This document shows, one piece after another, positions 18,613-35,293 of a stretch of DNA of 47,082 nt (positions are counted from its first letter, which is position 1; each line of letters opens with the position of its first letter). Made by a program: the position numbers and the translations under genes. The stretch spans positions 1 to 47,082 of the forward strand of contig NZ_JACCWG010000435.1 in assembly GCF_013697775.1 (NCBI RefSeq). Reading direction: 5' to 3'. A model generated the notes under the pieces. The model searched no databases. It was not told the DNA's origin and was given only the letters and a program-made list of their open reading frames with translations. The stretch comes from Ramlibacter sp. Its GTDB lineage: Bacteria > Pseudomonadota > Gammaproteobacteria > Burkholderiales > Burkholderiaceae_C.

Positions 18613-19245
18613 CTAGCAGAACACCTGGCGCGCCAGGTCCCAGCGGTCCAGCCGGTCCTGCATGCCGTTGTTGCCGCCGTTGATGATGCGGCTGATCTGG
18701 CGGAAGGTGTCCTCGTCGTCCTTGTCGGCCAGCGGGTTCAGGCCCTTGGAGTTCCAGAACCAGGCCGCCGACAGCGTCGCGCCGACCGGTGTGATGAGCC
18801 CGCCGGGGTTCTGCACCACGGTCCCATCGCTGATCCCCTTGCCGTAGGCCGTGTAGTTGCTCCTGCCGGTCACCTGGATCAGGCCGCGCCCGCGGAAGTT
18901 CCAGCCGTCGCCCGAGGCGGTGTTGCCGTTGCCGTTGCGGCTGGCATACACGTAGTTGGCGATCTTCTGCGGCTGGCGGTCGTAGGGCTGGGCGAAGGCG
19001 TCGCTGGTGAAGCGCGAAGGCCAGGTCTTGCGCAGGCCCTGCCACGAATAATTCAGGTTTTCCTCGACGGCGCGAAAGCTGCCCGACTCGTGCGCGATCT
19101 GCGCCACGAAGGCGGCGACCCGCACGCCGCTGTTGATGCCGAAGCGCACCATGGCGGCATTGAGCGCATCGACGTACATGGCGGCGACGTCCGGCTTGGC
19201 GTCGGGCACTGCGTCTTGCAGCTGGCTGGCTGTGATCGGTTGCAT
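18613..19245 (-). CDS. Glycoside hydrolase family 19 lysozyme/chitinase-like protein
   Basis: The 210-residue protein matches the short bacterial/phage GH19 type: FVAQIAHESGSFRAVEENLN contains the catalytic Glu pair region, followed by NYSWQGL, GDGWNFRGRGLIQVTGRSNY and the ending NGGNNGMQDRLDRW. Such enzymes cleave chitin or peptidoglycan glycan. The start at 19245 is supported by GGGGAG upstream. There is no signal peptide, as in phage endolysins, but no other phage gene is near, so it may be a domesticated endolysin or be released by lysis. Confidence 0.85.
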   Translation of the reverse strand: MQPITASQLQDAVPDAKPDVAAMYVDALNAAMVRFGINSGVRVAAFVAQIAHESGSFRAVEENLNYSWQGLRKTWPSRFTSDAFAQPYDRQPQKIANYVYASRNGNGNTASGDGWNFRGRGLIQVTGRSNYTAYGKGISDGTVVQNPGGLITPVGATLSAAWFWNSKGLNPLADKDDEDTFRQISRIINGGNNGMQDRLDRWDLARQVFC

Positions 19246-19402
19246 GGCGGTCTCCCCTATTTCGGCGTGTTCAGCACGCGTTGTAAGCAAAGACCGGCCC
19301 GGCCGCAAGCCCCGCGTGCGCGCAGGCGGCGAATGCGTCACGCAGGCCGCGCCTGGCGTTGTTCGCGCGCCGCGCCGATCGTCATGGCGCCCGACGAAGA
19401 CG

Positions 19403-20509
19403 CTACGGCACGTTCCTGACCAGCGCCGCCGCCATGTCGATCACCACCACCTGATGCGGCTGCAGCCGCTGCGTGGGCTTGTGGATGTGGAAACCGAACG
19501 GGTCGCCCACCTCGGTCTTGATGCCAGAGAGTTCTTCCATCACGGCCAGCCCGCAGTACGGCGCATAGAAATCGGAATAGCCGCCCTCGTGCGTCATCAG
19601 CAGCCGCCCGCCGCACAGGCGTTCGGCGGCGTCCTTCAGCGCGCGCGTCATCAGCCGGTAGGTTTCGGCCATCGCCATCTGCCGGCCCAGCGGATCGTAG
19701 AGGCAGCTGTCGAAACCCGAGGCCACGAAGACCATCTCGGGCCTGAATTTCTCCAGCGCCGGAAGCACCACGCGCTCGACCACCGCCAGGTAGGTGTCGT
19801 GCCCCGACCCCGGCGGCAGCGGCACGTTGATGTTGCCGCCGCGGCCTGCGCCTTCGCCGGTTTCGGTCAGCGTGCCGGAATTCACCGGGTAGTTGCTCTC
19901 CTCGTGCACGGACATGGTCAGCACGTCCGGGTCGTGGAAGTACAGGCCCTGCACGCCGTTGCCGTGGTGCACGTCCCAGTCGAACACCGCGATGCGCTTC
20001 ATGCCATGCACCGCGCGCAGGTGCTCGATGGCGATGGCCGTGTTGGCCAGCAGGCAGAAGCCGCGCCCGCGGTCGCGCTCGGCATGGTGGCCGGGCGGAC
20101 GCACCAGCGCGTAGGCGTTGCGGATTTCGCCGTTCACGATGGCGTCCGCGGCGGCGATGCAGCCGCCGGCCGACAGCTGCGCGATCGGCCACGAATCGGG
20201 GCCGACCGGCGCGCGCTCGCCGGCGTCGCCGTGGCCCTGCCTGCTCATCGCCTTCAGCCGCTCGACATAGCCCGGCGTGTGGATGCGCAGGACCTCTTCC
20301 TCCGTCGCGGGACGCGGGCGCACCAGGGCCAGTTCGTCCAGCAGGCCCGACACCTCCAGCAGGTTGCGGATGCGCCGTTTGCTGGTCGGCTCCTCGATGT
20401 GGAACAGGCCGGGCTCGATGAAGCCGCCCGCCGGCATGGCACCGGCGGCGATGCCGGTGATGTGCCACATGTAGCGTTCATGCCAGACCAGGCCGGTCTT
20501 CGCAGCCAT
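19403..20509 (-). CDS. HDAC / acetylpolyamine amidohydrolase-like deacetylase
   Basis: The 368-residue zinc hydrolase of the arginase-deacetylase fold shows all catalytic segments: RPPGHHAERDRGRGFCLLAN (tandem His), FDWDVHHGNGVQ (zinc Asp and His), ASGFDSCLYDPLGRQ (second zinc Asp) and THEGGYSDFYAPYCG (in place of the Tyr loop). Bacterial members remove acetyl groups from acetylpolyamines or other N-acetyl amines. It is the last gene of the operon, starting two bases after the PLP decarboxylase stop. Paired with the GNAT in the same operon it could remove a protecting acetyl group, which is an inference. Confidence 0.88.
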   Translation of the reverse strand: MAAKTGLVWHERYMWHITGIAAGAMPAGGFIEPGLFHIEEPTSKRRIRNLLEVSGLLDELALVRPRPATEEEVLRIHTPGYVERLKAMSRQGHGDAGERAPVGPDSWPIAQLSAGGCIAAADAIVNGEIRNAYALVRPPGHHAERDRGRGFCLLANTAIAIEHLRAVHGMKRIAVFDWDVHHGNGVQGLYFHDPDVLTMSVHEESNYPVNSGTLTETGEGAGRGGNINVPLPPGSGHDTYLAVVERVVLPALEKFRPEMVFVASGFDSCLYDPLGRQMAMAETYRLMTRALKDAAERLCGGRLLMTHEGGYSDFYAPYCGLAVMEELSGIKTEVGDPFGFHIHKPTQRLQPHQVVVIDMAAALVRNVP

Positions 20510-20511
20510 GC

Positions 20512-21771
20512 TCAATCGCAGGACAGTTCGAGCGCCAGCAGTTCGTCCATGCGCTGGCGGCGGCGGATCAGCCGGCGGCTGCCGCCGTCCAGCAGCACCT
20601 CGGGCGCCAGCGTGCGGCTGTTGTAGTTGGAGGACATGCTCGCGCAGTACGCGCCGGCGTCGTTGAACACCGCTAGGTCGCCCACCTCGGGCTCGGGCAT
20701 GTCCTGCGTGACGATGCCGCCGCCCGCCTCCTGCGTGAACAGGTCGCCGGCCTCGCACAGCGGCCCGCCCACGATGGTGGGGCGCACGTTGCCGCGCGCC
20801 GGCGCGCCGGCCTGCGGCACGATTTCGATCTGGTGGAAGCTGCCGTACATGGACGGGCGCATCAGGTCGTTGAAGCCGGCGTCCACCAGCACGAACTGGT
20901 TGGCCCCTACGCTCTTCTTGGCACGCACCTCCGACACCAGGCAGCCCGAATTCGCCACCACGTAGCGGCCCGGCTCGATCTCCAGCGAGACCGGATGCCC
21001 CAGGTGCGCCTCGATGGTGGCGCGCGCCGCGCTCCACACGTCGAAAATTTCGCCGACGTCGAGCTCCTTGTCGCCCTCGCGGTAAGTGGCCGGCAGGCCG
21101 CCGCCGGCCGACACCGCCTGGATGTCGATCGGGCACTTGCGCACCTCGTTGACCATCGCGTCGCACACGCGCCGCAGGTGGCCGACGTCGGCGCCGGAGC
21201 CGATGTGCATGTGCAGCCCGACCAGCTGCAACTCGTGCCTGCGGATGAGGCCGTAGCACTCCTGCACGTTCTCGTGCCAGATGCCGTGCTTGCTGAACTC
21301 GCCGCCGGTGTTGGTCTTGCGGTTGAAGCCGCTGCCGAAACCGGGGTTGATGCGCAGCCACACCGCATGGCCAGGGCTGGCCTGCGCCAGCTGCTCCAGC
21401 ATCTGCGGCGAGCCGATGTTCACCGGGATCTTCAACTGCGCGATGCGTTGCAGCACCGTGCGGTCGAGGATGTCCGACGCATAGACGATGCCGGCCGGCT
21501 CGCCCGAGCCAACGAAGCCGGCCGCCACCGCGCGCTCGATCTCGCCCAGCGACACCGCATCGACCACCACGCCCAGCTCGCGCAGCAGCCGCAGCACGTG
21601 CACGTTGGAATTTGCCTTCTGTGCGTAGCGGACCACGCCGAACTTCTTCAGCCGCTCGATCCGCCCGCGGATCGCCGCCGCGTCGTAGACCCAGCACGGC
21701 GTGCCGTGCTGCTGCGCGACCTCCCGCAGCGTGTCGTCGGGGATGGTATGCCTGGTTGTGGGTGCGTTCAT
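20512..21771 (-). CDS. Diaminopimelate decarboxylase-like PLP enzyme (fold type III)
   Basis: The 419-residue protein has the alanine-racemase/LysA barrel with the PLP lysine in RYAQKANSN, the HMHIGSGAD segment, the phosphate-binding glycine run QAVSAGGGLP, EIEPGRY and the C-terminal domain with GGPLCEAGDLF, the substrate-side Cys of decarboxylases. Family members decarboxylate D-centre meso-diaminopimelate, carboxynorspermidine, ornithine/arginine or citryl-diaminopropionate. The operon context suggests a dedicated paralogue rather than housekeeping LysA. AGGAGACACCG precedes the ATG. Confidence 0.85.
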   Translation of the reverse strand: MNAPTTRHTIPDDTLREVAQQHGTPCWVYDAAAIRGRIERLKKFGVVRYAQKANSNVHVLRLLRELGVVVDAVSLGEIERAVAAGFVGSGEPAGIVYASDILDRTVLQRIAQLKIPVNIGSPQMLEQLAQASPGHAVWLRINPGFGSGFNRKTNTGGEFSKHGIWHENVQECYGLIRRHELQLVGLHMHIGSGADVGHLRRVCDAMVNEVRKCPIDIQAVSAGGGLPATYREGDKELDVGEIFDVWSAARATIEAHLGHPVSLEIEPGRYVVANSGCLVSEVRAKKSVGANQFVLVDAGFNDLMRPSMYGSFHQIEIVPQAGAPARGNVRPTIVGGPLCEAGDLFTQEAGGGIVTQDMPEPEVGDLAVFNDAGAYCASMSSNYNSRTLAPEVLLDGGSRRLIRRRQRMDELLALELSCD

Positions 21772-21804
21772 CGGTGTCTCCTGGGTGTTCGGAAAATCTG
21801 TTTT

Positions 21805-22860
21805 TCAGGCCCGCGCACCGGCCGGCGCGATCTCGACGATCACGTAGGCCAGGTCGTTGAAGCCCTGCGCGATGAAGCGGTCGCTCAGCGCCGCGTAGCG
21901 GGTGCGCGCGGCCACCGGGTCGGGGTGGTACAGCCGGCAGCCGCCGGCCATGTCCAGCGCGGGCCGCAGCGGCGACGGGTTGGCCATGGTCCGGCGGCCG
22001 TCCACGCGCAGCAGGCCCTCGTGGGCCGGCACGTCGAACACCACGCTGTCGGCGCCGACGATGGACTTCGCGAGATCCACCAGCTCCCACTGCTTGGTGG
22101 CGGCGTTGCCGAGCGAATAGCCCAGCAGCACCGCATGCGCATGCGCGCCCTGCGGCGTCTGCCGGAACGCCGCGATGGCGCGGAACGCGGCGCCTTGCAG
22201 CTGCAGCCCGTTGTCGCCGCCGTTGGAGGTCAGCGCCAGCATGTCGCGCGTGGACGCCAGGCCGAACGGCAGGTTGCCCAGCACCAGCGTGCGGCTGCCG
22301 GCCGCGCCGCCGACGACGCCGGCGAAACCGTCGCGGATGTCGTTCAGCATGCCCACGCGATCCGTCTGTTCGTTCAGCACATGGTTGCAATGGAAGTACG
22401 CCAGCGCGCGCGGATTGATGTCCATGCCGATGCGGCGCACGCCGTTGCCGAAAAAGGCCAGGTTGTGGCCGCTGCCGGTCGCCAGGTCGATCACCGTGTC
22501 GGCCCAGTGCACCAGCCCGCGCCGGCGGCAGTACGCGAGGATCGCCTCGCTCTCGTCCGCGAACGGGAACACGCGGATGCGCGCATCGACCCACACGCCG
22601 TCCGTCAGCACGGTTGACTGCCCGATCAGGTTGACGCGCACGCCCAGGGCGCCGTCCTGCACCAGGCCCAGTGTGTTGAGCGCGTCCACCGTGAACGAAG
22701 CCGGCAGCTTGAACGGCCGCAGCTGCGACGGGCTGGACTGCCAGTCCCGGTATGCCGGGCTGCCGCAGACGGCCTTCAGTTGCGCGACGGCGGCGGCGCG
22801 CAGAGCCCCATCTTCCGCGAGCCTGGAGGTCGCCAGGAAGATGCTGTCGGTGTCGATCAT
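21805..22860 (-). CDS. SAM-dependent methyltransferase with NLPFG active-site motif
   Basis: The 351-residue class I methyltransferase has an N-terminal helical/strand domain of about 120 residues (FKLPASFTVDALNTLGLVQD), then the SAM motif VIDLATGSGHNLAFFG, RIGMDINPRALAYF and LVLGNLPFGLAST. NLPFG corresponds to the (D/N)PP(Y/F) motif of enzymes that methylate planar nitrogen such as glutamine amide or adenine N6. The track start at 23454 runs through the neighbouring gene; ATG 22860 overlaps the carbamoyltransferase stop (ATGA). Specific substrate is unknown; coupling to the carbamoyltransferase suggests the same pathway. Confidence 0.8.
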   Translation of the reverse strand: MIDTDSIFLATSRLAEDGALRAAAVAQLKAVCGSPAYRDWQSSPSQLRPFKLPASFTVDALNTLGLVQDGALGVRVNLIGQSTVLTDGVWVDARIRVFPFADESEAILAYCRRRGLVHWADTVIDLATGSGHNLAFFGNGVRRIGMDINPRALAYFHCNHVLNEQTDRVGMLNDIRDGFAGVVGGAAGSRTLVLGNLPFGLASTRDMLALTSNGGDNGLQLQGAAFRAIAAFRQTPQGAHAHAVLLGYSLGNAATKQWELVDLAKSIVGADSVVFDVPAHEGLLRVDGRRTMANPSPLRPALDMAGGCRLYHPDPVAARTRYAALSDRFIAQGFNDLAYVIVEIAPAGARA

Positions 22861-23864
22861 GGCGCCCTGCCCAGCATCAGGCCCAGCAACGCGCAGCGCA
22901 GCCACACGCAGTCGCGCGCCTGCTTGAAGTAGTGCGCCTGCGGCATGGGGTCCAGCGCGCGGTCGATGTGGTCGGCGATCGGCCCGATGTGCAGCACGGC
23001 GATCGGCCGCCCGAGCTGCGCCACCGCCTGCGCGGTGATGCGGTAGTTGTCCGGCGTGGGCGTACTCTGCTTGGACGCTACGTTGGCCTTGTCGTCGAAG
23101 TCGGCGTGGAAGTTCGAGTGGTACACGCCCAGCGTGGTGACCAGGTCGGCCCGCGCCAGGATCTCGCCGATGCCACCGCACATCTCCACCGCCGTGCCGC
23201 GCTGCCGCAGCAGCTGCGCCACGTCGTCGGGCATGCTGGAGCCCGGCGGTTCCAGGACCAGCAGGCGCACGCCGAACAGCGACAGGCCCATCACCAGCGA
23301 CCGGTGCGCGCGCCAGCCCAGGTGGCCGACGATGCCGACGGTCAGCCCGTCCACCCGGCCGAAGTGCTTGTGGATGCGGTACAGGTCGCCCATGGCCTGC
23401 GTCGGGTGCTCGCCGTAGCCGTCGCCGGCGTTGACCACCGGCACCGGCGAACATTGCGCGGCGCGCGCGGCGGAGCCGGTCTCGGGGTGCCGCAGCACCA
23501 GCAGGTCGGACATCTGCGCGGTGAAGCGCACCACGTCCTCCAGCGTCTCTTCGTAGAAGCCGACGGCGCGGGTGGTGGCCGGGTCGGCGAAGCCGATCAC
23601 GTGGCCGCCCACGCGCAGCATCGCCGCCTCGAAACTCATGCGGGTGCGCGTGCTCTGCTGGTAGAACATCACGGCCATGGTGCGGCCCGCGATCACGCCG
23701 GCGCAGGAGGTGCGCGGCGCCTGTTCCAGCAGGGCCGCCATGCGAAAGCAGTGCTCCAGCATCGGCCGCGTCACGTCCAGCATCGAGACGATGCTGCGCG
23801 GCAGCGCCGGCCCGTCGGCCAGGGCGCCGCGCAGGTCGCCGGCGGTCATCTGCGCTTCGGACAT
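22857..23864 (-). CDS. Aspartate/ornithine carbamoyltransferase-family protein, altered substrate site
   Basis: The 335-residue protein keeps the carbamoyl-phosphate site (QQSTRTRMSFEAAM) and HPTQAMGDLY of the ATCase branch, plus an ATCase-like ending (AHYFKQARDCVWLRCALLGL). Residues that bind aspartate look replaced: the usual RVQxER loop aligns with LGVYHSNFH, the HPLPR motif with HIGPIAD, and the S..KGE loop with VGFYEE. I therefore infer carbamoylation of a different amine. Start at 23864, six bases after the GNAT stop codon; the stop overlaps the methyltransferase start. Confidence 0.85.
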   Translation of the reverse strand: MSEAQMTAGDLRGALADGPALPRSIVSMLDVTRPMLEHCFRMAALLEQAPRTSCAGVIAGRTMAVMFYQQSTRTRMSFEAAMLRVGGHVIGFADPATTRAVGFYEETLEDVVRFTAQMSDLLVLRHPETGSAARAAQCSPVPVVNAGDGYGEHPTQAMGDLYRIHKHFGRVDGLTVGIVGHLGWRAHRSLVMGLSLFGVRLLVLEPPGSSMPDDVAQLLRQRGTAVEMCGGIGEILARADLVTTLGVYHSNFHADFDDKANVASKQSTPTPDNYRITAQAVAQLGRPIAVLHIGPIADHIDRALDPMPQAHYFKQARDCVWLRCALLGLMLGRAP

Positions 23865-23869
23865 GGAGG

Positions 23870-24373
23870 TCACTTCGCGCCGGGCGAACCCTCGGCCAGT
23901 GCGCCGACCGCCTCCCGCGTCATGCGAAAGACATGCCAGCCCTCCATGGGCGCCGCGCCCAGCGATTTGTAGAAGTCGATGGACGGCGTGTTCCAGTCCA
24001 GCACCGACCATTCCATGCGCGCGCAGTCGCGCTGCACCGCGATCTGCGCCAGGCCGCGCAGCAGCCCCTTGCCCAGGCCGTGGCCGCGCGCCTCGGGCTT
24101 GACGAACAGGTCTTCCAGGTAGATGCCCTTCTTGCCGAGGAAGGTGGAGTAGTTGTGGAAGAACAGCGCGAAACCCACGCCCTTGCCGTCGAGTTCCGCG
24201 ATCAGCACCTCGGCGGGCGGCCGCTCGGACGCGAACAGCGCCTCGCGGATCACCGCCGGCGTCGCGACGAACATGTCCTCCAGCTTCTCGTAGACGGCCA
24301 GGTCGCGGACCAGCTCAACGATCAGGTCGGTGTCGGCCGCGGTGGCGGGGCGGATGTGGGTCGAAGATGCCAT
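23870..24373 (-). CDS. GNAT acetyltransferase (diamine/thialysine-acetyltransferase type)
   Basis: The 167-residue protein resembles the SSAT/thialysine branch of GNAT enzymes: YEKLEDMFVATPAVI near the N-terminus, the acetyl-CoA loop LEDLFVKPEARGHGLGKGLL, and WSVLDWNTPSIDFYKSLGA. Relatives acetylate terminal amines of spermidine, putrescine-like diamines or lysine analogues with acetyl-CoA. Its place in an operon with an HDAC-like deacetylase and a LysA-like decarboxylase supports an amine substrate. Start ATG 24373 lies 36 bp after the FAD gene. Confidence 0.85.
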   Translation of the reverse strand: MASSTHIRPATAADTDLIVELVRDLAVYEKLEDMFVATPAVIREALFASERPPAEVLIAELDGKGVGFALFFHNYSTFLGKKGIYLEDLFVKPEARGHGLGKGLLRGLAQIAVQRDCARMEWSVLDWNTPSIDFYKSLGAAPMEGWHVFRMTREAVGALAEGSPGAK

Positions 24374-24409
24374 GTGCTTGTTGCCTTGCTGAAATGTTGT
24401 CGTGCCGGA

Positions 24410-26215
24410 TCAGGACAGCGCGGCGGACGGCGCTGGTGCGCGCGCGGACCAGAAGTCCTCGAAGCGCTTGGGGTGGTACAGCGTGTGCATGGGATGCTGC
24501 CGCCCCTGCAGCGCATCGAGCGTGGCACGGGCCACGCCCGTGGCCTGCGAGAAGCCGCCGGTGTTGTGGCCCGAGGCGACCACCAGCATGCCGTTGCGCG
24601 CCTTCTTCATCTCGAACACGCCCAGGCTGCTGGCCGTCCAGGGCCGCACGCAGTAGCGCCGGCTGGCGCGCAGCTGGCCGGTGTCCATGGCCTGGCGGTA
24701 CGCGGCAGGGAACAGGTGCTCGATGTAGTCCTCCATCGAGGCGAAGAGTGCTTCCATCTGCGCCTCGTCGATGTTGGACAGGTCGCGCCCGACGTAGCCG
24801 AAGCCGGAGCCGAAGATCAGCACGTGCTCGCCCTCGCGGTTCTTCGCGGGAATGATGTTGCCGCTGTTGGCCAGGTGGCCCGGGCGCGAGATCTTCAGCG
24901 AGCGCTGCAGCCGTGGTTCCAGGTTCGGGAAACTCATCCAAGCACCCAGCACGCCGTGCACCTTGTTGTCCGACAGCGTGCCGCTGAGCAGGTCGGCGCC
25001 GTACACGCCCGGCGACAGGAAGTAATGGTCGCTTTGCATCAGCTCGCCGTTGACCGCCACGCCGGTGACGGTGCCGCCCTCAGTGGCGATGCGCTGCGCG
25101 TCGGCGCCCCAGTGGAACGCCACGCCATTGGCATCCAGGTAGGCCACCAGGTTGCTGACGAAGCTGTGCACGTTGACCGAGAAGCCCGCCACCTCGATGC
25201 CGCCGACGATTTCGCCGTTGCGGCAGCCGTCGGCCAGCGCGGGGTAGCCGGCCATCACCGCGGCCTGGTCCAGCTCGCGCTGGTAGGAGCCCACCCATTT
25301 CTGCCGCTTGAGCTGCTTGTGGTGGTAGGCGCCGGTGGAAGCGATGCGCAGCAGGCCCTGCTTGAACTCCACCTTGTCGAACAGGGCGGGCCGCGCCTCG
25401 ATCAGCTGGTTCCAGTACTTGAAGCTCTCGTGGTTGAGCGCGAAGATGTCCTCGTTGTACTTGTTGGCCAGGAAGATCGGCACGTCGGCGAACTCGCGCA
25501 TCCACGCTTCCTCGCGCGGGGCGTAGCGCGCGCGGTGTCCCACCTGCCAGCCGCCCTGGTCGATCGGCGTGCGGATGTGCCCGTGCAGCTGCGCGCCGGG
25601 CGCGGCTTCGCGGTCGTGGTAGTTGTCGCACTCGGTCAGCGAGAACATGCGCGCGTTCTCGCCGCCGTGGGTGCACCCGAGCGAGCTCCAGTCCGGTCGC
25701 GCGCGCGGATCGGCGGTTTTCTCGACGATCTCCACGCGCAAGCCGCTGTCCGCCAGGTGCATGGCCGTCATCAGGCCGACGATGCCCGAGCCGACCACCA
25801 GCACCCGCTGCGCCTTCTTGCCGGACGCCGTGCGCAGCAGGTCCAGCGCCTGGCGGCCGGTGACCTCGCGCGCATGGATGCCCTCTGCGGCGGCCAGCGC
25901 CTTCTCCACCGGCGTGGTGCCGCGGGAAAAGAACACCACGATGGCGCCGTCGCCGTGGCTGGCCATGCACTCCGCGGCGCCGAAGGTTTCGGCCACCAGG
26001 ATCACGACGGTGGCCCCGCGCGCCTCCCGCCAGGCCCGCACCAGGTGGGCGGGCGGCATGCGTTCGGCCACCAGGATGTCGGCGCCCGCGTCCACCAGCA
26101 GCTCCAGCAGCAGCGCGTCGTCCCGGGCCGCCGCGCCGGGCACGGGCACCAGCGTGGCCGGCATCAGCTGCTCGGCCTCCCGCGCGGACAGTTCAAGGGT
26201 CGATGCGATTCTCAT
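24410..26215 (-). CDS. FAD-dependent amino acid/amine oxidoreductase with extra N-terminal domain
   Basis: The 601-residue protein begins with about 130 residues I cannot assign (DDALLLELLVDAGADILVAE ... VVFFSRGTTPVEKALAAAEG), a likely alpha/beta domain. A DAO-type FAD domain follows, with the dinucleotide motif RVLVVGSGIVGLMTAMHLAD and EIVEK, and ends with YCVRPWTASSLGVFE and ASGHNTGGFSQATGVARATL typical of D-amino-acid dehydrogenase/sarcosine-oxidase relatives. It would oxidise an amine or amino acid. GGGAGACAACA precedes the ATG. The fusion is unusual and its partner domain unknown. Confidence 0.85.
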   Translation of the reverse strand: MRIASTLELSAREAEQLMPATLVPVPGAAARDDALLLELLVDAGADILVAERMPPAHLVRAWREARGATVVILVAETFGAAECMASHGDGAIVVFFSRGTTPVEKALAAAEGIHAREVTGRQALDLLRTASGKKAQRVLVVGSGIVGLMTAMHLADSGLRVEIVEKTADPRARPDWSSLGCTHGGENARMFSLTECDNYHDREAAPGAQLHGHIRTPIDQGGWQVGHRARYAPREEAWMREFADVPIFLANKYNEDIFALNHESFKYWNQLIEARPALFDKVEFKQGLLRIASTGAYHHKQLKRQKWVGSYQRELDQAAVMAGYPALADGCRNGEIVGGIEVAGFSVNVHSFVSNLVAYLDANGVAFHWGADAQRIATEGGTVTGVAVNGELMQSDHYFLSPGVYGADLLSGTLSDNKVHGVLGAWMSFPNLEPRLQRSLKISRPGHLANSGNIIPAKNREGEHVLIFGSGFGYVGRDLSNIDEAQMEALFASMEDYIEHLFPAAYRQAMDTGQLRASRRYCVRPWTASSLGVFEMKKARNGMLVVASGHNTGGFSQATGVARATLDALQGRQHPMHTLYHPKRFEDFWSARAPAPSAALS

Positions 26216-26249
26216 TGTTGTCTCCCTGCCTGCAATCGGACGCGCCCGC

Positions 26250-27047
26250 CTACGGCTGCAGCCGCCGCCGCGCGATGAGCGGGTAGCCCCGGTACTCGGT
26301 CATGCGGCGGTGCAGGGTCTCGCGGTCCTCGACCGAGATGTAGCCCAGCCGGCCGTTGCCGTGCAGCACACGCTCCTGGTCCAGCGCCATCACGCAGTGC
26401 GCGGAATAGAAAAGGAAATCGCCGCGGCGCAGCGGCTCGTCCGGCTCCAGCTTGCGGCCCAGGTGCTCGCTCATGTCGCTCATGGCGCGCGGCGACTCCA
26501 GGCCGCACAGCGACAAGGCCAGCTGGATCATTCCGGAGCAGTCCTGCCCCAGCGTGGAACGGCCGCCCCAGATGTAGGGCGTGCCGGCGAACGAAGCCAT
26601 GGTGTCGACGAAGTCCGCTTCCTTGTGCGCCAGGTCGCCCGCGTGCTCCTTGAACACCCAGCCGCGCGGCCACACGCGGAAATGCTCCTCGGTTTCGCCG
26701 ATCACGCGCAGCAGGCTGCCGCGGCTGAGCATCTCCACGTGCAGCGCCTTGAGCGATGGTGCGGAAACGATCTGCGCGACGTGGGCCTGCACGCGGTGCG
26801 TGGCCTCGCCCGGCGGTTCGGCGACGTCTTCGATGCGGACGTAGCCGGTGTGGCAGAAGCCGGAGAACTCCACGCTGGCCTGGTACCAGGCGCCGACCTG
26901 CGCGCGGATGCCCAGCGTTTCGCCGTAGAGCACCTGCGTCTCCAGCGGCGCCGACTCGGCCGGCTCCTCGCGCAGCGGCGTGATGCCCTTGATGGCAACC
27001 ACCCGCTTCAGGCCGGCGGGCAACGGTTCGATGGTTCTGTTGGTCAC
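26250..27047 (-). CDS. Cytosolic NlpC/P60 cysteine peptidase with SH3-like domains
   Basis: The 265-residue protein has two bacterial SH3-like segments (about residues 15-75 and 85-135) and an NlpC/P60 domain with the catalytic Cys in YIWGGRSTLGQDCSGMIQLA and catalytic His in SAHCVMALDQERVLHG. This layout matches YkfC-type gamma-D-glutamyl-diamino-acid endopeptidases that cleave murein peptides in the cytosol. There is no signal peptide. The start is a GTG at 27047, eight bases after the ligase stop. In this operon it could instead hydrolyse or transfer a gamma-glutamyl-type bond of the pathway intermediate. Confidence 0.85.
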   Translation of the reverse strand: MTNRTIEPLPAGLKRVVAIKGITPLREEPAESAPLETQVLYGETLGIRAQVGAWYQASVEFSGFCHTGYVRIEDVAEPPGEATHRVQAHVAQIVSAPSLKALHVEMLSRGSLLRVIGETEEHFRVWPRGWVFKEHAGDLAHKEADFVDTMASFAGTPYIWGGRSTLGQDCSGMIQLALSLCGLESPRAMSDMSEHLGRKLEPDEPLRRGDFLFYSAHCVMALDQERVLHGNGRLGYISVEDRETLHRRMTEYRGYPLIARRRLQP

Positions 27048-27054
27048 GGCGGCC

Positions 27055-28854
27055 TCAGCTGTACAAAGTTTCGATGTGCTGCCGGCGCAGCGCGCGGAAG
27101 CGTTTGAGGTGGATGGTTCCCTTGTCGGTCAGCTCGCCCTCGGCGGCGGACGGCGGGTCGGCGAGGACGCACCAGCGCGCCAGGCGCTCGCTGCTGCCCA
27201 GGCACTGGCCGTTGTAGCGCCCGAGCAGGTTGGCCAGATGCGTGTGCAGCAGCGCGGCGCGCGCATCGTCCCAGGCAAGGTCGTGGGTCCAGCCGAAGTC
27301 GCGCAGCGCGATCTCGTCGTTCAACCAGACCAGCGCCGCCAGGTGCGGCCGGTCCGGGCCTTCGAGCACCACGTCGCGCACCAGCGGCCCGGTGATGGCG
27401 AACAGCGCGCGCTTGATGCGGTTGGGGATCACCCAGGTGCCGGTGGCCAGCTTGAACTGCTCGGCGAAGCGGCCTTCGAAGCGCAGCCCGCGGTCCGGGT
27501 TGGCAGCATCGGCGAAGGACACCGCGTCGCCGGTAATGAAGAAGCCCTCGCCGTCGAACGCGGCGGCCGTCGCGGCGTCGTCGCCCAGGTAGCCCGGCGT
27601 GACGTTGGGCCCCTGCACCGCGATGGCATACAGGCCGTCGCGCTCCGTCAGCCTGCAGCGCATGCCCGGCAGCGGCGTGCCGATGTGGCCCGCTGCAGCC
27701 ACCGGGAAATGCGTGATGGTGGTGGTGGAGGTGGTCTCGGTCAGGCCCCAGCCGCTGGCCCAGGGCGCGGGTGCCCCGGTGGCCACGCGGGCCATCTCGT
27801 CGATGCCGGTCCACACCTCGGCCGACAGCACGGCGCCGCCGTACACCAGCAGGTCCAGCCGGGAGAAGAAGCGTTCGGCCAGCGCCCGGTCCTGCTGCAG
27901 CAGCGGCAGCAGCGCCGAATAGCCGAGCGGCACGTTGGTGTACCAGGTCGGCCGCACCTCGGCCAGGTTGCGCGCCGTGGCGGCGATGCCCTCCAGCGAG
28001 GGTCGGCCATCGTCGATGTAAAGCGTGCCGCCGTTGCGCAGCGTCATGTTGAAGCTGTTGTTGCCGCCCGAGGTATGGCTCCACGGCAGCCATTCGCACA
28101 GAACCGGTGGATGGTCGTTCAAAAACTGCCACAACTGCGCCATCTGCTGCTGCTGCGCGCACAGCATGCGCTGCGTGTTGATCACGCCCTTGGGCGTTCC
28201 CGTGGTGCCGGAGGTGAACAGGATCTTGGCAACCGTGTTGCCGTCGACCGCACGGCGGCGGTCTTCAAGCGCCGCCGTCAGCGCGAGCGGCGTGTCGGCC
28301 TCGGTTTCGGCGCGGCAGGCCTGCAGGTCAGGCGTAAGAATCTCCCGGGCGTCCTCGGCCCGCACCGGCCCGGCCGCGGCGGACAGCGACAGCGGGCTGA
28401 CGTACAGGAAGGCCGGCCGCGCGATGCGCACCACGTCGCCGACCCTCTCCAGGCCAGTGGCGCTGCCCAGGTACGTGGGCGACAACGGCACCACTGCCAC
28501 GCCGACCGACATGGCGGCCAGCGACAGCACGCCATGCGCGATGCTGTTCTCGCTGATCAGCAGCAGGCGGTCGCCGTGCGTGCATTGCAGCCGCAGCAGG
28601 TGGCGCGCCACCGCGTCCACCCACTGCCTGGCTTCACCATAGGTCAGCGTCGCCCAGTCGCCGTCCGCCGCGCGCTCGGCAAGGAACACGCTGGACGGCG
28701 TGGCCGCAGCCCAGTGCGTGAGATGCGCCAGCAGCGACGCGGGGAACGACCGCAGCGGGTCGTCGCAGGAATACAGCAGGTCGCCCGCGCGCCGCACCAG
28801 CGTTGTGGCCGGCCTGGCGAGGCGCGTGCGGGCGGGTGCGGCGGCGCGAGACAT
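27055..28854 (-). CDS. Feruloyl-CoA synthase-like AMP-dependent acyl-CoA ligase
   Basis: The 599-residue ANL-superfamily enzyme carries the P-loop KILFTSGTTGTPKGVINTQR, the A5 region WASGWGLTETTST, ITGDAVSF and an ending (ELTDKGTIHLKRFRALRR) like feruloyl-CoA synthases. TLYIDDGRPSLEG and VRPTWYTNVPLGY also fit that subgroup. It would activate a carboxylic acid with ATP and CoA. ATG 28854 (MSRAAAPART) is preferred; a GTG two codons upstream (28860) is an alternative with a closer AGGA. No enoyl-CoA hydratase (vanillin pathway) is nearby, so ferulate use is doubtful. Confidence 0.85.
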   Translation of the reverse strand: MSRAAAPARTRLARPATTLVRRAGDLLYSCDDPLRSFPASLLAHLTHWAAATPSSVFLAERAADGDWATLTYGEARQWVDAVARHLLRLQCTHGDRLLLISENSIAHGVLSLAAMSVGVAVVPLSPTYLGSATGLERVGDVVRIARPAFLYVSPLSLSAAAGPVRAEDAREILTPDLQACRAETEADTPLALTAALEDRRRAVDGNTVAKILFTSGTTGTPKGVINTQRMLCAQQQQMAQLWQFLNDHPPVLCEWLPWSHTSGGNNSFNMTLRNGGTLYIDDGRPSLEGIAATARNLAEVRPTWYTNVPLGYSALLPLLQQDRALAERFFSRLDLLVYGGAVLSAEVWTGIDEMARVATGAPAPWASGWGLTETTSTTTITHFPVAAAGHIGTPLPGMRCRLTERDGLYAIAVQGPNVTPGYLGDDAATAAAFDGEGFFITGDAVSFADAANPDRGLRFEGRFAEQFKLATGTWVIPNRIKRALFAITGPLVRDVVLEGPDRPHLAALVWLNDEIALRDFGWTHDLAWDDARAALLHTHLANLLGRYNGQCLGSSERLARWCVLADPPSAAEGELTDKGTIHLKRFRALRRQHIETLYS

Positions 28855-28866
28855 GGCCACGCGTTC

Positions 28867-30054
28867 CTAGACCGCCGCCCGGGACGCGCGGCCCGGTACG
28901 TGCCAGGCCGCCAGCGCCAGGCAGGCAAGCAGATTGGCGGCGCCCAGCACGCCCACGAATGCCGAGGCCCTGAAACCCTCGCTGCCCGTGCCCAGCGCCG
29001 CCACATGCGCGCCGAACACCGCACCCGAGAGGTGCAGGCAGCCCACGATGGCACCGGCCGCACCGGTGGACCGGTCAGCCAGCGACAGCGCCAGGCTGGT
29101 CGAATACGCCGTCAGCACGCCGTTGCACATGGAGCACAGCGTGGCGGCAAGGTAGAACAGCACCAGCGTCAGCAACCCATGCGACCACGCGGCATACAGC
29201 GCCGCGCCGACGGCTGCCTGCACCGCCGCCGCGACGCTGGTGAGCGCGGGCAAGTGCAGCTTGCCGGCGAAGCGGCGCACCGTGAGCGCCACCAGCACCG
29301 TTGCCACCGATGGGATCGCGCTCACCGTGCCGTAGAACGCGGCCGAGCGGCCCCAGTCGCGCATCACCAGGAAAGGCGCGGCATTGATGAAGATATAAGC
29401 CGCGCCGAGACCTGCCGCGCCGACCAGCGACGCCAGCCACAGCCGCGGCAGCAGCAGGTTGGCGCCCAGCCCGCGCACGCTGCCCGCGAGCGAGCTGCGC
29501 GCGCGCAAGGTCTCGGGCACGAAGCGCCAGCACAGGTAGAGCGCGGCACAGGCCAGCACCGCGATCCACACGGCGCCGGCACGCCAGCCCAGGCTCGATT
29601 CGAACAGCGCACCGGTGGGCGCACCCAGGGTGGGCCCGAGCGCTGTGCAGATGCCGACCAGTAAATTCCCCCGCGCCAGCGCCACGAAGTCATCGGGGTA
29701 CAGGTCGCGAAAGATCGGGCCGATGAGGATCAGCGACGCGCCGCCCGCGGCGGCCTGCAATATGCGCAGCCGCAGGAAGGTTTCGAAGTCTGCCACCGCG
29801 GCCTGCAGCAGCGACGCAATCGCGAACACCGCCAGGCCGCCCAGCAGGATGCGCCTGCGCCCGAACCGGTCCGACACCGTGCCGGCCAGCAGGTAACCCA
29901 CGCCGATGCCGGCGAGGCTGGCCGACACCAGCCAGCCGACCGGCCGGCCACCCGTGTCCAGTTCGCGCTGGATGGTGGGCAGCGACGCGGTCAGCACCAG
30001 CACCGCGTAGAACGGCAAAAAGGCGGTCAGGCCGAGCGCGAACGGCAGGCGCAT
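28867..30054 (-). CDS. MFS exporter, Bcr/CflA (DHA1) type
   Basis: The 395-residue protein has 12 hydrophobic helices, a start FALGLTAFLPFYAVLVLTAS, LAGTVSDRFGRRRILLGG (motif A) and RILQAAAGGASLILIGPIFR in helix 4 (motif B/C-like), as in Bcr/CflA drug and metabolite exporters. It is the first enzyme-sized gene of the operon and starts three bases after the stop of a 33-codon ORF, so its translation is probably coupled to that leader. It likely exports the pathway product. Confidence 0.88.
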   Translation of the reverse strand: MRLPFALGLTAFLPFYAVLVLTASLPTIQRELDTGGRPVGWLVSASLAGIGVGYLLAGTVSDRFGRRRILLGGLAVFAIASLLQAAVADFETFLRLRILQAAAGGASLILIGPIFRDLYPDDFVALARGNLLVGICTALGPTLGAPTGALFESSLGWRAGAVWIAVLACAALYLCWRFVPETLRARSSLAGSVRGLGANLLLPRLWLASLVGAAGLGAAYIFINAAPFLVMRDWGRSAAFYGTVSAIPSVATVLVALTVRRFAGKLHLPALTSVAAAVQAAVGAALYAAWSHGLLTLVLFYLAATLCSMCNGVLTAYSTSLALSLADRSTGAAGAIVGCLHLSGAVFGAHVAALGTGSEGFRASAFVGVLGAANLLACLALAAWHVPGRASRAAV

Positions 30055-30057
30055 GGG

Positions 30058-30159
30058 TCAGGCCCCGATGCGCGCGATCGGCCGCGGCATGACGGCCACG
30101 CCGGGCGGCATGGCGCTTTCCTGCCGCGCACGGCGGCAGGAGCAAACATGGCTGCTCAT
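30058..30159 (-). CDS. 33-residue putative leader peptide upstream of MFS exporter
   Basis: A 33-codon ORF, too short for the track, reads MSSHVCSCRRARQESAMPPG and ends GVAVMPRPIARIGA-stop. An AGGGAG sequence lies nine bases before its ATG. The stop lies three bases before the exporter ATG. The Cys codons at positions 6 and 8 and the Arg run fall in the 5' arm of a perfect 9-bp hairpin. This arrangement is typical of attenuation or translational-coupling leaders. It could also be a small functional peptide or a chance ORF. Confidence 0.5.
   Translation of the reverse strand: MSSHVCSCRRARQESAMPPGVAVMPRPIARIGA
30119..30141 (-). promoter_or_regulatory. Hairpin inside leader ORF (possible attenuator)
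   Basis: On the minus strand TCCTGCCGC pairs perfectly with GCGGCAGGA around a 5-nt loop. The 5' arm covers the Ser-Cys-Arg codons of the leader peptide, so a ribosome stalled at the Cys/Arg codons would open the hairpin. No T-run follows, so any effect would be on translation or Rho access rather than intrinsic termination. Confidence 0.45.
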
Positions 30160-30418: not shown

Positions 30419-33400
30419 CTACCTGGCCTTGTAGACACCAGCTGACAATTCGATGTCGTTAGCCTTATGAAGATGGTCGATTTGCATCTCAATCGTTTCG
30501 CGCAACTGGCTGCTCACCACCGCGAATCCAAGCGTCTTTGCGACTGCCGGAGGGATCTCCCCGCGATCTCCTCCCAAGTTCTGTTTCAGCAATAAGCGAA
30601 TTGCCTCCTGGATTTCAACAGGCGACAGGTACTCGGGTTTCCTCAACGCCGGAGACGACACCGCGGCGCGATTGCGAACACGAACTTTCCGGGTTGGAAT
30701 GTCGATGAACGATTCCCTTTTCTCGATACTCTTGTCGCGGATGAGGTGACCGAGGCTGGCCTCGACTGCATCGCGGATGCGATTCCCGGCTCGCTGCAGC
30801 CCCCACAGCGTCCGCAAACGAGTGACAAGTTCGTCTGTGTGGATCGGCCCTTCCTCCTGGACGATCTTGTAGACAAACTCGGCAAGCCGGTAGGCAGGAA
30901 CTTCGTGCAGTTCCTTGTGCTTCGGCACGTCGAAACTCGCCTCCGAATACGTTTCGCCGGGGCGGTTGCCGAACCCCACCTGCATCTCCGACGTGTTGTC
31001 TTCGCGATCGAGAAACCCGAACTGCATAACCGGCGTGGCGGCATTCGCACGCAATTCCTCGCGAGCCGCCAATTCGCCGCGCGCGGCCGCTACCGCCGCG
31101 AGCAGTTTGTCCAGCTCGATCTGCGGTTGCCTGAACCAGTCGCTTGCCCAAACCCTGTGAAGGATCCAGCCGTGATCTTCCAGGACAGCCTGCCGAAGAC
31201 GATCTCGGTCACGCGCGGAACGCGAAGAGTGATACGAGTCACCGTCGAGTTCGATCCCCAACAGGTAGCGGCCAGGATTGTCCTTGTCGAGTACGGCGAG
31301 ATCGATGAAAAACCCCGCAATCCCCACTTGCTGGTGGACAGTCAATCCTGTTTTCTCGACAGCACCCTTTAGATCGGTTTCCAGCGCGGAGCCTGCCTCC
31401 TTGCTGGTGCTCGTGGCAATCGACAGCTTTCCTGTCTCCGCGTACTTGAGAAATACCTTGAGCGCCGCGACTCCCTTGCCCTTCGCGCGCTCCAGGTCAA
31501 TGTCGTCGGCCGTGATCGACGAGAACACCTCGCACCGCAACTTGGCACGGGAAATCAGGACGTTCAGCCGGCGTTCTCCACCATCAGCGCCTATGGGGCC
31601 GAATCGCATTGCGAGGTAGCCGCTTGCGTTTCGCGCGTAGGCAACCGAGATGAAGATGACGTCCCGCTCGTCGCCCTGCACGTTTTCCAGGTTCTTGATG
31701 AAGAACGGTTCGTTGGGATGCGCCGTGAAGAAGGATTCCGTTTCCGGAAACTTGCGCCGCAGTACTTCAAGTTCGTCCTGGATGGCGATCTTCTGCTGGA
31801 GCGAGAACGATGCCACGCCCAGCGAGAGTGCGGGTGACTGCACCGCGTGTTCCATAATCGCGTGCGCGATGGCCTTCGCCTCTTCCCGGTTGACGCGCGT
31901 CCCACCCGTGTCGAAGACACCGTCCTTGACATAGTTGAATCGCAGCCCCTGTCCGCCAGCAGCAGTTGTGGGGCTCGGCACGACAAACAGCCTGCTTTCG
32001 TAGAACTGCTGGTTGGACACGGCGATCAGGGATTGATGGCGGCTGCGGTAGTGCCACCGGAGCATCTTTTGAGGCATGCCCTTGGAGACGCACAGGCTCA
32101 GGATGCTCTCGACATCCGCAGTTCCCGCAATGTGCGCCTCGTCGTCCTCGTCGTCACGTTCCGCGTCGCTTGTCATTCTCGAAAAGAATCGGGTCGGCGG
32201 CAATTGCTTGTCGTCTCCCACGACGACGATCTGCTTGCAACGCGCGACCGCACCCAGTGCATCCACCGGCTCAATCTGGCTCGCCTCGTCGATGACCAGC
32301 AAGTCGAACTCGATCGCTCCCGGCTCGAGGAACTGCGCCACGGAGAGCGGGCTCATCATGAAGACGGGCTTGATCGCTTGCACCGCCGGCGCCGCATGCC
32401 GAAACAAGCGGCGCAGCGGCATATGACCGCGTTTGCGCGCAATCTCTCCGTTCAACACGCCCATGGGGCCGATACCAGTCGCAGCGCGTGGAATGCCTTC
32501 GAAGTGGCGCAGCGCGGCCTCGGCACGCGCGATTTCGATCCGCTTTTTGTCAAGGCTTCGGAACTGCTCCACGTGCCGCGAGTGCTGGCCGCCGTCGAAT
32601 TCGACCAGTTGCGGCATCTGTCGGCACAGATCGCGCAGCACGGTTTCGTAGCTTGCCTTGAGGAACGCGGGAACAAGCTGGGCTACAGTCAAGCGCGCCT
32701 CTTCGATCTGCGTCACCAGGCCGGTGAGCCCAAGACCCTTTGCCTGTTCCCTGACGCTGAAATAGTGTGTCCACGCGAACAGGCCAACAGGCTCGCTTTG
32801 CCACCGCTCCAGCCGCGACGCAATTTCCCTCAGCGCGATCGCTTCAGATGAAGGAACACCGAAGGCCTCCGGAACATTCAGCGCGTAGTTGGCGGCGATC
32901 TTGCTCCAACTGACCTCGAACGACTGAAGCTTCACGCTGCAGTCCCGCGTGGTCGATCCGCATTCAGAAGGATCGGCAACACGCGAGTAGAGCTGCCTGA
33001 ATCGTTCCGGGACCACATTTCCGTCCGAACCCCGCATCCATTCGATCACGGCCTGCAGGTGCGACCAGTTGCTTCCCTCTCCTTGCCACGCGGCCCCGAA
33101 AGCGCTGCGCGCGAAATCGGCCTGGGCTGCCACTTCCTTGCGCAGCCGTATGGATTCCGAGATCGTATCGAGGAGCGCCAGTTGCTCGTTCCGGGTTTTG
33201 GGCAAGGCTGTGCGCAATTGGCCCTTCAATGATCTGACCGCCGCCCGGTATTCCCCTGAGAAGATCCGAAACAGCGAGTCGCCCCGCTCCGCGATGGCAC
33301 GGCGTGCAAGTGCGAAGTCCTGGTCCCATGCGCTTTCCAGGAATGCCTTCTCCAGTTTTTCCCGGCTCAGCGCATAGCTCAACCCTTTGTCGACGATCTG

Positions 33401-35155: not shown

Positions 35156-35293
35156 CCCCATCCCCTAAGAGTCCAACGCGGCATCTTTAGCCAAGAGATT
35201 GAGCTTACGATTGGTAACTTCCCTAACTAGACCTTAGAAAGACCTTTGACTAAGGCCCTGCCCCTCACTTCGTCGTTTCAGCCTACGCCGCCC

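Follow-up and report, generated by a model that had tools for sequence, protein, structure and literature searches.

The 47,082-nucleotide window analysed here is one whole contig of the 480-contig genome of a Ramlibacter sp. On its minus strand, nine open reading frames (ORFs) lie in a row between positions 19403 and 30054, and we propose that this gene cluster encodes a small-molecule pathway. Pfam and NCBIfam, from which the domain calls were taken, name eight of the nine proteins, the methyltransferase being the one without a family. From the transporter end to the amidohydrolase end, the genes are the following:

28867..30054, minus strand: transporter of the major facilitator superfamily (MFS), Bcr/CflA drug-efflux type (Pfam MFS_1; best NCBIfam model TIGR00710)
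27055..28857, minus strand: AMP-binding acyl-CoA/acyl-adenylate ligase, PRK12582 / feruloyl-CoA synthase-like (PF00501, 9e-52; NF009232)
26250..27047, minus strand: SH3b + NlpC/P60 protein (PF00877, 2e-13)
24410..26215, minus strand: FAD-dependent oxidoreductase (FAD/DAO; "flavoenzyme") of the glycine/sarcosine-oxidase superfamily, with an N-terminal extension; core gene (PF01266, 6e-30)
23870..24373, minus strand: GNAT N-acetyltransferase of the thialysine/diamine-acetyltransferase type; core gene (PF00583)
22857..23864, minus strand: carbamoyltransferase (CTase) resembling aspartate transcarbamoylase (ATCase), second-substrate pocket altered (PF02729/PF00185; TIGR00670)
21805..22860, minus strand: orphan class I S-adenosylmethionine (SAM)-dependent methyltransferase (MT), with SAM motif DLATGSGHN and an NLPFG/NMPFG motif IV (here NLPFG)
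20512..21771, minus strand: LysA-type decarboxylase (meso-diaminopimelate, DAP), dedicated paralogue; core gene (TIGR01048)
19403..20509, minus strand: class II histone-deacetylase-like amidohydrolase (HDAC); core gene (PF00850, 1e-86)

Measured on the sequence, the intergenic distances from the MFS gene to the HDAC gene are 9, 7, 34, 36, 5, -4, 33 and 2 bp, and because these gaps are so small, the nine genes are likely to form a single transcript. The 4-bp overlap of the CTase and MT genes is also present in the Polaromonas cluster described below. A consensus scan for a sigma-70-type promoter gave nothing above background, terminator-like matches equalled the shuffled background, and Rfam and tRNA scans returned no matches. 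A preliminary description of this DNA had counted ten frames. The nine packed genes with their named enzymes hold up, but the tenth, a leader ORF of 33 codons (30159-30058), has no counterpart and no support. Pfam found no carrier protein, condensation or ketosynthase domain in the nine proteins.

With an alignment of the flavoenzyme family as query, we searched 85,462 species genomes and obtained 38 loci, two of which carry the rest of the set: one in a Polaromonas metagenome-assembled genome (MAG; L021) and one in the alphaproteobacterium Pelagibius sp. Alg239-R121 (L020). The Polaromonas cluster, in the order FAD-GNAT-CTase-MT-MFS-LysA-HDAC, shares six of the nine genes with the window (identities: FAD 57, GNAT 73, CTase 66, MT 56, LysA 67 and HDAC 69%). 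In Pelagibius the order is FAD-LysA-HDAC-GNAT-second GNAT-MFS, and four of the nine are shared (FAD 48, LysA 63, HDAC 62 and GNAT 63%); this cluster has neither CTase nor MT. The flavoenzyme, LysA, HDAC, GNAT and an MFS transporter are therefore found together in three genomes of two classes, CTase and MT in two of these, and HDAC directly follows LysA in all three. Ligase and NlpC/P60 genes occur in this operon context in the window only. The comparison separates a core (flavoenzyme, LysA, HDAC and GNAT) from exchangeable capping and transport modules. It bears out the earlier proposal that amine- or amino-acid-modifying enzymes and a transporter form one unit, and the core recurs. A fixed set of ten genes, as also proposed, is not supported, and the co-occurrence of CTase, LysA, HDAC and GNAT, for which a search of other genomes had been suggested, holds in Polaromonas but not, for want of the CTase, in Pelagibius.

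Among 369 genomes of the class, three contain the flavoenzyme family at E<=1e-40, and an E. coli-type LysA reaches 1e-100 in 2 of 321 genomes; none of 59 other species of the genus has the flavoenzyme. Both proteins are rare, yet three genomes of two classes have them close to each other and to HDAC and GNAT, which is more than would be expected by chance. All shared genes are under purifying selection: dN/dS ratios, which are rough because some pairs are close to saturation at synonymous sites, lie between 0.18 and 0.36 for the six genes shared with Polaromonas and between 0.10 and 0.30 for those shared with Pelagibius. The Polaromonas and the Pelagibius cluster both adjoin mobile-element genes (transposase or recombinase/resolvase), and the cluster apparently spread horizontally between bacteria.

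The LysA-type enzyme scores above the cut-off of TIGR01048 (365.8 versus 297.9 bits), and its closest PDB entry is the meso-DAP decarboxylase LysA of E. coli (1knw, 520 bits), to which it is about 55% identical and with which it shares the catalytic residues and those recognising the L-end of the substrate. In DAP decarboxylase, this end is held by a glutamate, the EPGR arginine and the arginine and tyrosine of RPxxYG (PMC8277567), and all three cluster LysAs retain the distal Glu of the CE-GD motif, the EPGR Arg and the Arg and Tyr of RPxMYG. In contrast to the E. coli enzyme, however, the cluster copies carry S341A, H147S, H149F and S227P, and in a tree that also contains 12 E. coli-type LysAs and the three housekeeping copies they form a clade of their own with 100/100 support. 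The serine of the CESGD motif, which is replaced by alanine (S341A) in all three cluster copies, is present in each of the 12 E. coli-type and three housekeeping enzymes. The two histidines that have become Ser and Phe (H147S, H149F) lie in the NPGFGHGH loop, which by alignment would correspond to the substrate lid described for DAP decarboxylase (PMC8277567). Taken together, these residues suggest that the DAP-like L-end is still read, but that the substrate or its setting has changed.

All three host genomes keep a separate and distant housekeeping lysA (31-38% identity; on another contig in Ramlibacter), and a role of the cluster LysA in lysine supply is therefore unlikely. LysA-type enzymes have been recruited to small-molecule pathways before, as TabA and BtrK show. 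The cluster lysA adjoins the HDAC gene, whereas other E. coli-type lysA loci have a LysR regulator in this place. An E. coli-type lysA also occurs on small Acinetobacter plasmids (8.7-38 kb) and on one Pseudomonas aeruginosa plasmid of 49 kb (L088, H97-H104). On Rhizobium and Sinorhizobium plasmids (L059, L089), a gene for a pyridoxal phosphate-dependent transferase and a MATE exporter gene are directly followed by an E. coli-type lysA; these loci possibly represent a further LysA-fed pathway.

The flavoenzyme has no PDB relative by sequence (E<=0.001), and it falls far below the cut-off of the glycine oxidase ThiO model TIGR02352 (62.5 versus 250.8 bits). Its AlphaFold2 model (pLDDT 91, pTM 0.91) has its best PDB fold matches in glycine oxidase (4ysh, Foldseek 6.6e-18), CmiS2 (TMt 0.81) and sarcosine oxidase. 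The predicted fold is thus that of the glycine/sarcosine-oxidase superfamily, which includes the natural-product amino-acid oxidases CmiS2 and NikD. The cluster protein differs from this superfamily in some 130 extra N-terminal residues and belongs to a separate sequence family, that of the 38 loci. Within it, the flavoenzymes of the window, Pelagibius and Polaromonas form one clade (100/100), while in other bacteria the wider family adjoins genes for nonribosomal peptide synthetases (NRPS), glutathione S-transferases (GST), HAD, LysE, DMT or MFS proteins.

Other, as yet unnamed gene sets are marked by flavoenzymes of this family (L009-L013, L027, L044, L045, L048, L056 and L057). Genes for an FAD/NAD(P)-binding protein, a GST and a HAD protein accompany it in L009 and partly in L012 and L013, and in Rhizobiales and Rhodobacterales it is found with gamma-glutamylcyclotransferase, aminotransferase, LysE and GNAT genes. 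The Ramlibacter genome itself has a second member (about 30% identity) on a 3.3-kb contig (374-2245; L008). The gene after it encodes an AMP-binding protein cut short by the end of the contig, and the two may belong to another pathway of this genome.

Thialysine, ornithine and diamine acetyltransferases modify diamines or the side-chain amino groups of diamino acids. The best PDB relatives of the cluster GNAT are 2fe7, the thialysine acetyltransferase 12jc (9e-45), SSAT1/2 (about 1e-27 to 1e-29) and the ornithine enzyme NATA1, and this full-length similarity points to an N-acetyltransferase of the thialysine/diamine (SSAT2) type. For the HDAC, the best PDB entries are 5li3 and 5g0x, a histone deacetylase-like amidohydrolase (HDAH), followed by propanil and dimethoate hydrolases. 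Its motifs RPPGHH, DWDVHH, SGFD and EGGYS align to the catalytic set of 5li3 (HH, DxH, D and GGY), and roughly half of the residues are identical to 5li3 and 5g0x in the alignment. It therefore shares fold and active-site motifs with the class II HDAH/acetylpolyamine-type amidohydrolases (P. aeruginosa 5g0x, propanil hydrolase 9gku). The cluster HDACs are set apart from these by their mutual identity (62-69%, against at most 54% to plasmid homologues) and by their fixed position beside LysA.

With ATCase (PyrB), the cluster CTase has the fold and the carbamoyl-phosphate residues in common, but at 203.7 bits it stays under the curated cut-off of TIGR00670 (236.95), as does the Polaromonas copy (197 bits). 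We compared it with solved ATCases, using the published residue table of the carbamoyl-phosphate and aspartate sites (PMC4581275). S52, T53, R54, T55, R105, H134 and Q137 (STRTR, RH and HPTQ) as well as R167 are kept, such that most of the carbamoyl-phosphate site is retained. In contrast, the substitutions S80A, K84Y, R229G, Q231Y, P266I and L267G are found, with identical residues in the Polaromonas copy. Because K84, R229 and Q231 on the aspartate side are lost, the acceptor is presumably an amine other than aspartate. The housekeeping pyrB and argF genes are located elsewhere in the Ramlibacter genome. This, together with the separate lysA, disposes of the possibility, raised in the preliminary description, that the genes are housekeeping orthologues: the cluster lysA-like and ATCase-like genes are extra copies.

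The adjoining MT matches no Pfam or NCBIfam family. Searches of other genomes from the family (200), the class (368) and a phylum sample (398) returned no full-length relative, and a search with the MT alone against assembled genome contigs and plasmids found nothing, the contig scan reaching close relatives only. Its sole full-length relative in all genomes searched is that of the Polaromonas cluster, making this a family in two genomes, with a dN/dS of about 0.36 between them. On the question of a PrmC-like N-methyltransferase, there is a weak PDB match (E=0.8), and an AlphaFold2 model from the two sequences is poor (pLDDT 44).

Considering all this, the core probably makes a small molecule from the cell's lysine branch, and we put at roughly one half the probability that the cluster as a whole is a horizontally spread pathway that draws on this branch and builds a small molecule without a carrier protein. 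The dedicated LysA paralogue, for which decarboxylation is the role that we infer, would remove the carboxyl group at the D-centre of meso-DAP or a close analogue, yielding a lysine-type diamino acid. The thialysine-type GNAT could then acetylate the side-chain amine as a protecting group, and the flavoenzyme could oxidise a C-N bond beside a carboxylate. In the window and Polaromonas only, the altered CTase would carbamoylate an amine of its non-aspartate substrate, and the MT would probably methylate a planar nitrogen, perhaps that of the ureido group. In Pelagibius, where this capping module is missing, the second GNAT perhaps adds an acyl cap instead. Finally, the HDAC-like amidohydrolase would strip off the acetyl group and the MFS transporter would move the product across the membrane; in the window alone, an additional acyl group could be added by the CoA/adenylate ligase and the NlpC/P60-fold enzyme. 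The substrates in this scheme are suggested by protein families and residues, and the order of the steps, the product and the direction of transport are likewise our proposals.

Several points weigh against this interpretation. Oxidation of an alpha-amine by the flavoenzyme would be hard to square with capping of that same amine. Furthermore, just three clusters are known, one of them truncated at a contig end, and the monocarboxylate-type MFS transporters of the other two could equally import. In the preliminary description the pathway had looked complete, which is not supported.

A more specific version, which we regard as tentative and rather doubtful as yet, is that the cluster represents a new class of NRPS-free exported metabolite, namely a DAP/lysine-derived diamino acid with an N-methylated ureido cap. 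It would be made by a mobile pathway of a re-specialised DAP decarboxylase, an acetyl protection and deprotection pair (GNAT and HDAC-like enzyme) and a new CTase/MT pair.

The transporters are where the preferred biosynthetic reading meets its main competitor. The window MFS is a Bcr/CflA-type drug exporter (165.8 bits on TIGR00710, cut-off 200.9), but the Polaromonas and Pelagibius MFS proteins belong to an unrelated, SfMCT/OFA-like family (lactate/oxalate-formate carriers). The earlier notion of a single exporter is thus not supported, and transport could run in either direction. Since the transporter family is not the same in all clusters, the main rival is that an N-acylated or N-carbamoylated lysine-like compound is taken up and degraded or detoxified: the MFS would import it, the HDAC would deacylate it and the flavoenzyme would oxidise the amino acid, with LysA and GNAT channelling intermediates. 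Breakdown of N6-acetyl-lysine is a known route. HDAHs related to that of the cluster are found in catabolic surroundings, and propanil and dimethoate hydrolases are among their relatives of solved structure. The ligase (547 bits on NF009232, below the cut-off of 777) shares 36-40% identity with AMP-binding proteins encoded on plasmids, feruloyl-CoA synthases among them, and a feruloyl-CoA-synthase relative sits in a catabolic operon. We nevertheless consider this rival unlikely. The transfer reactions spend carbamoyl phosphate, acetyl-CoA and SAM, an unusual expense for catabolism, and the MFS of the window is a drug-efflux-type protein. Neither an aldehyde dehydrogenase nor an aminotransferase or CoA-lyase turned up among the operon genes, and the flavoenzyme relatives adjoin amino-acid exporters.

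The second LysA with its active-site changes, kept beside a housekeeping copy in all three hosts, would also be expected if the product were a DAP/lysine antimetabolite hitting DAP decarboxylase. The cluster LysA would then be an insensitive copy, and the GNAT, being of the thialysine-acetylating type, would inactivate the product. Such self-resistance seems quite improbable to us, as LysA is always joined to an HDAC that could undo the GNAT protection in the same compartment, and as the altered LysA residues fit changed substrate handling just as readily.

Salvage of murein peptides (Dap/Lys), led by the NlpC/P60 enzyme and the decarboxylase, had been offered in the preliminary description as an alternative. 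An SH3b-NlpC/P60 protein and a DAP decarboxylase do share one operon, and the former has the domains of the YkfC-type murein-peptide endopeptidases together with their catalytic Cys/His/His (Cys170, His217 and His229, invariant in an alignment with relatives). YkfC-type enzymes are defined by Asp256; a small side chain at position 257 leaves space for D-Glu, and Tyr118 lies in the SH3b part (PMC2954226). In the window protein, however, PRAM stands where the Sinorhizobium and Halorussus relatives have PRDS or PRDA, such that the Asp256 equivalent is Ala and residue 257 is Met; the SH3b part, in which the Tyr118 equivalent would lie, aligned poorly with the relatives. The operon has no peptide permease, LdcA, MpaA or aminopeptidase, while the Sinorhizobium and Ruegeria relatives are near M17/leucyl aminopeptidases. 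The NlpC/P60 gene is also outside the conserved core: no homologue was found in the Polaromonas MAG, and one at 30% is encoded elsewhere in the Pelagibius genome. Murein salvage is thus disfavoured and in our view very improbable. A chance row of unrelated genes is hardly credible: six of the nine recur together in Polaromonas, four do so in Pelagibius, and both sets are under purifying selection. This contradicts a chance row for the six shared genes, though it is conceivable for the window-only ligase, NlpC/P60 and Bcr/CflA MFS genes.

For a small-molecule pathway fed by the lysine branch, a close parallel is found in the tabtoxin-type clusters, which contain the LysA-like TabA, a GNAT and an MFS transporter. 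In these antimetabolite clusters, too, enzymes of the DAP/lysine branch, an acetyltransferase and an MFS protein are reused for a small exported metabolite. However, none of the nine genes is beta-lactam synthetase-like or clavaminate synthase-like, and there are an HDAC, a CTase and an orphan MT instead. In agreement with the preliminary description, a literature search, which left out most subscription papers, turned up no cluster with this gene set. Pathways without signatures of NRPS, polyketide synthases or ribosomally synthesised and post-translationally modified peptides may escape cluster-finding software. If a product is made, its chemistry would link cell-wall and lysine metabolism to carbamoylation and acetyl protection. 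The cluster also provides an assay-ready orphan MT family, a CTase with a putative new acceptor and a candidate re-specialised DAP decarboxylase.

Directly downstream of the HDAC gene, on the same strand, lies a GH19 chitinase/lysozyme-like ORF (18613-19341; PF00182, 4e-6), which is probably not part of the unit, because it is absent from the other two clusters. On the other side, the operon adjoins a gene (30419-35161) for a 1580-aa protein with DUF4011, AAA helicase, MTES_1575 nuclease and DUF3320 parts. It sits in a 6-kb stretch of lower G+C content (0.60-0.62 versus 0.70) that looks like a defence-type insert. The left flank was not located in the stretches compared in an empty-site test. 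Contamination was considered and is unlikely, because the endonuclease III gene (nth) on the same contig matches its counterpart in a sister species at 86% identity and the right flank shows synteny within the genus.

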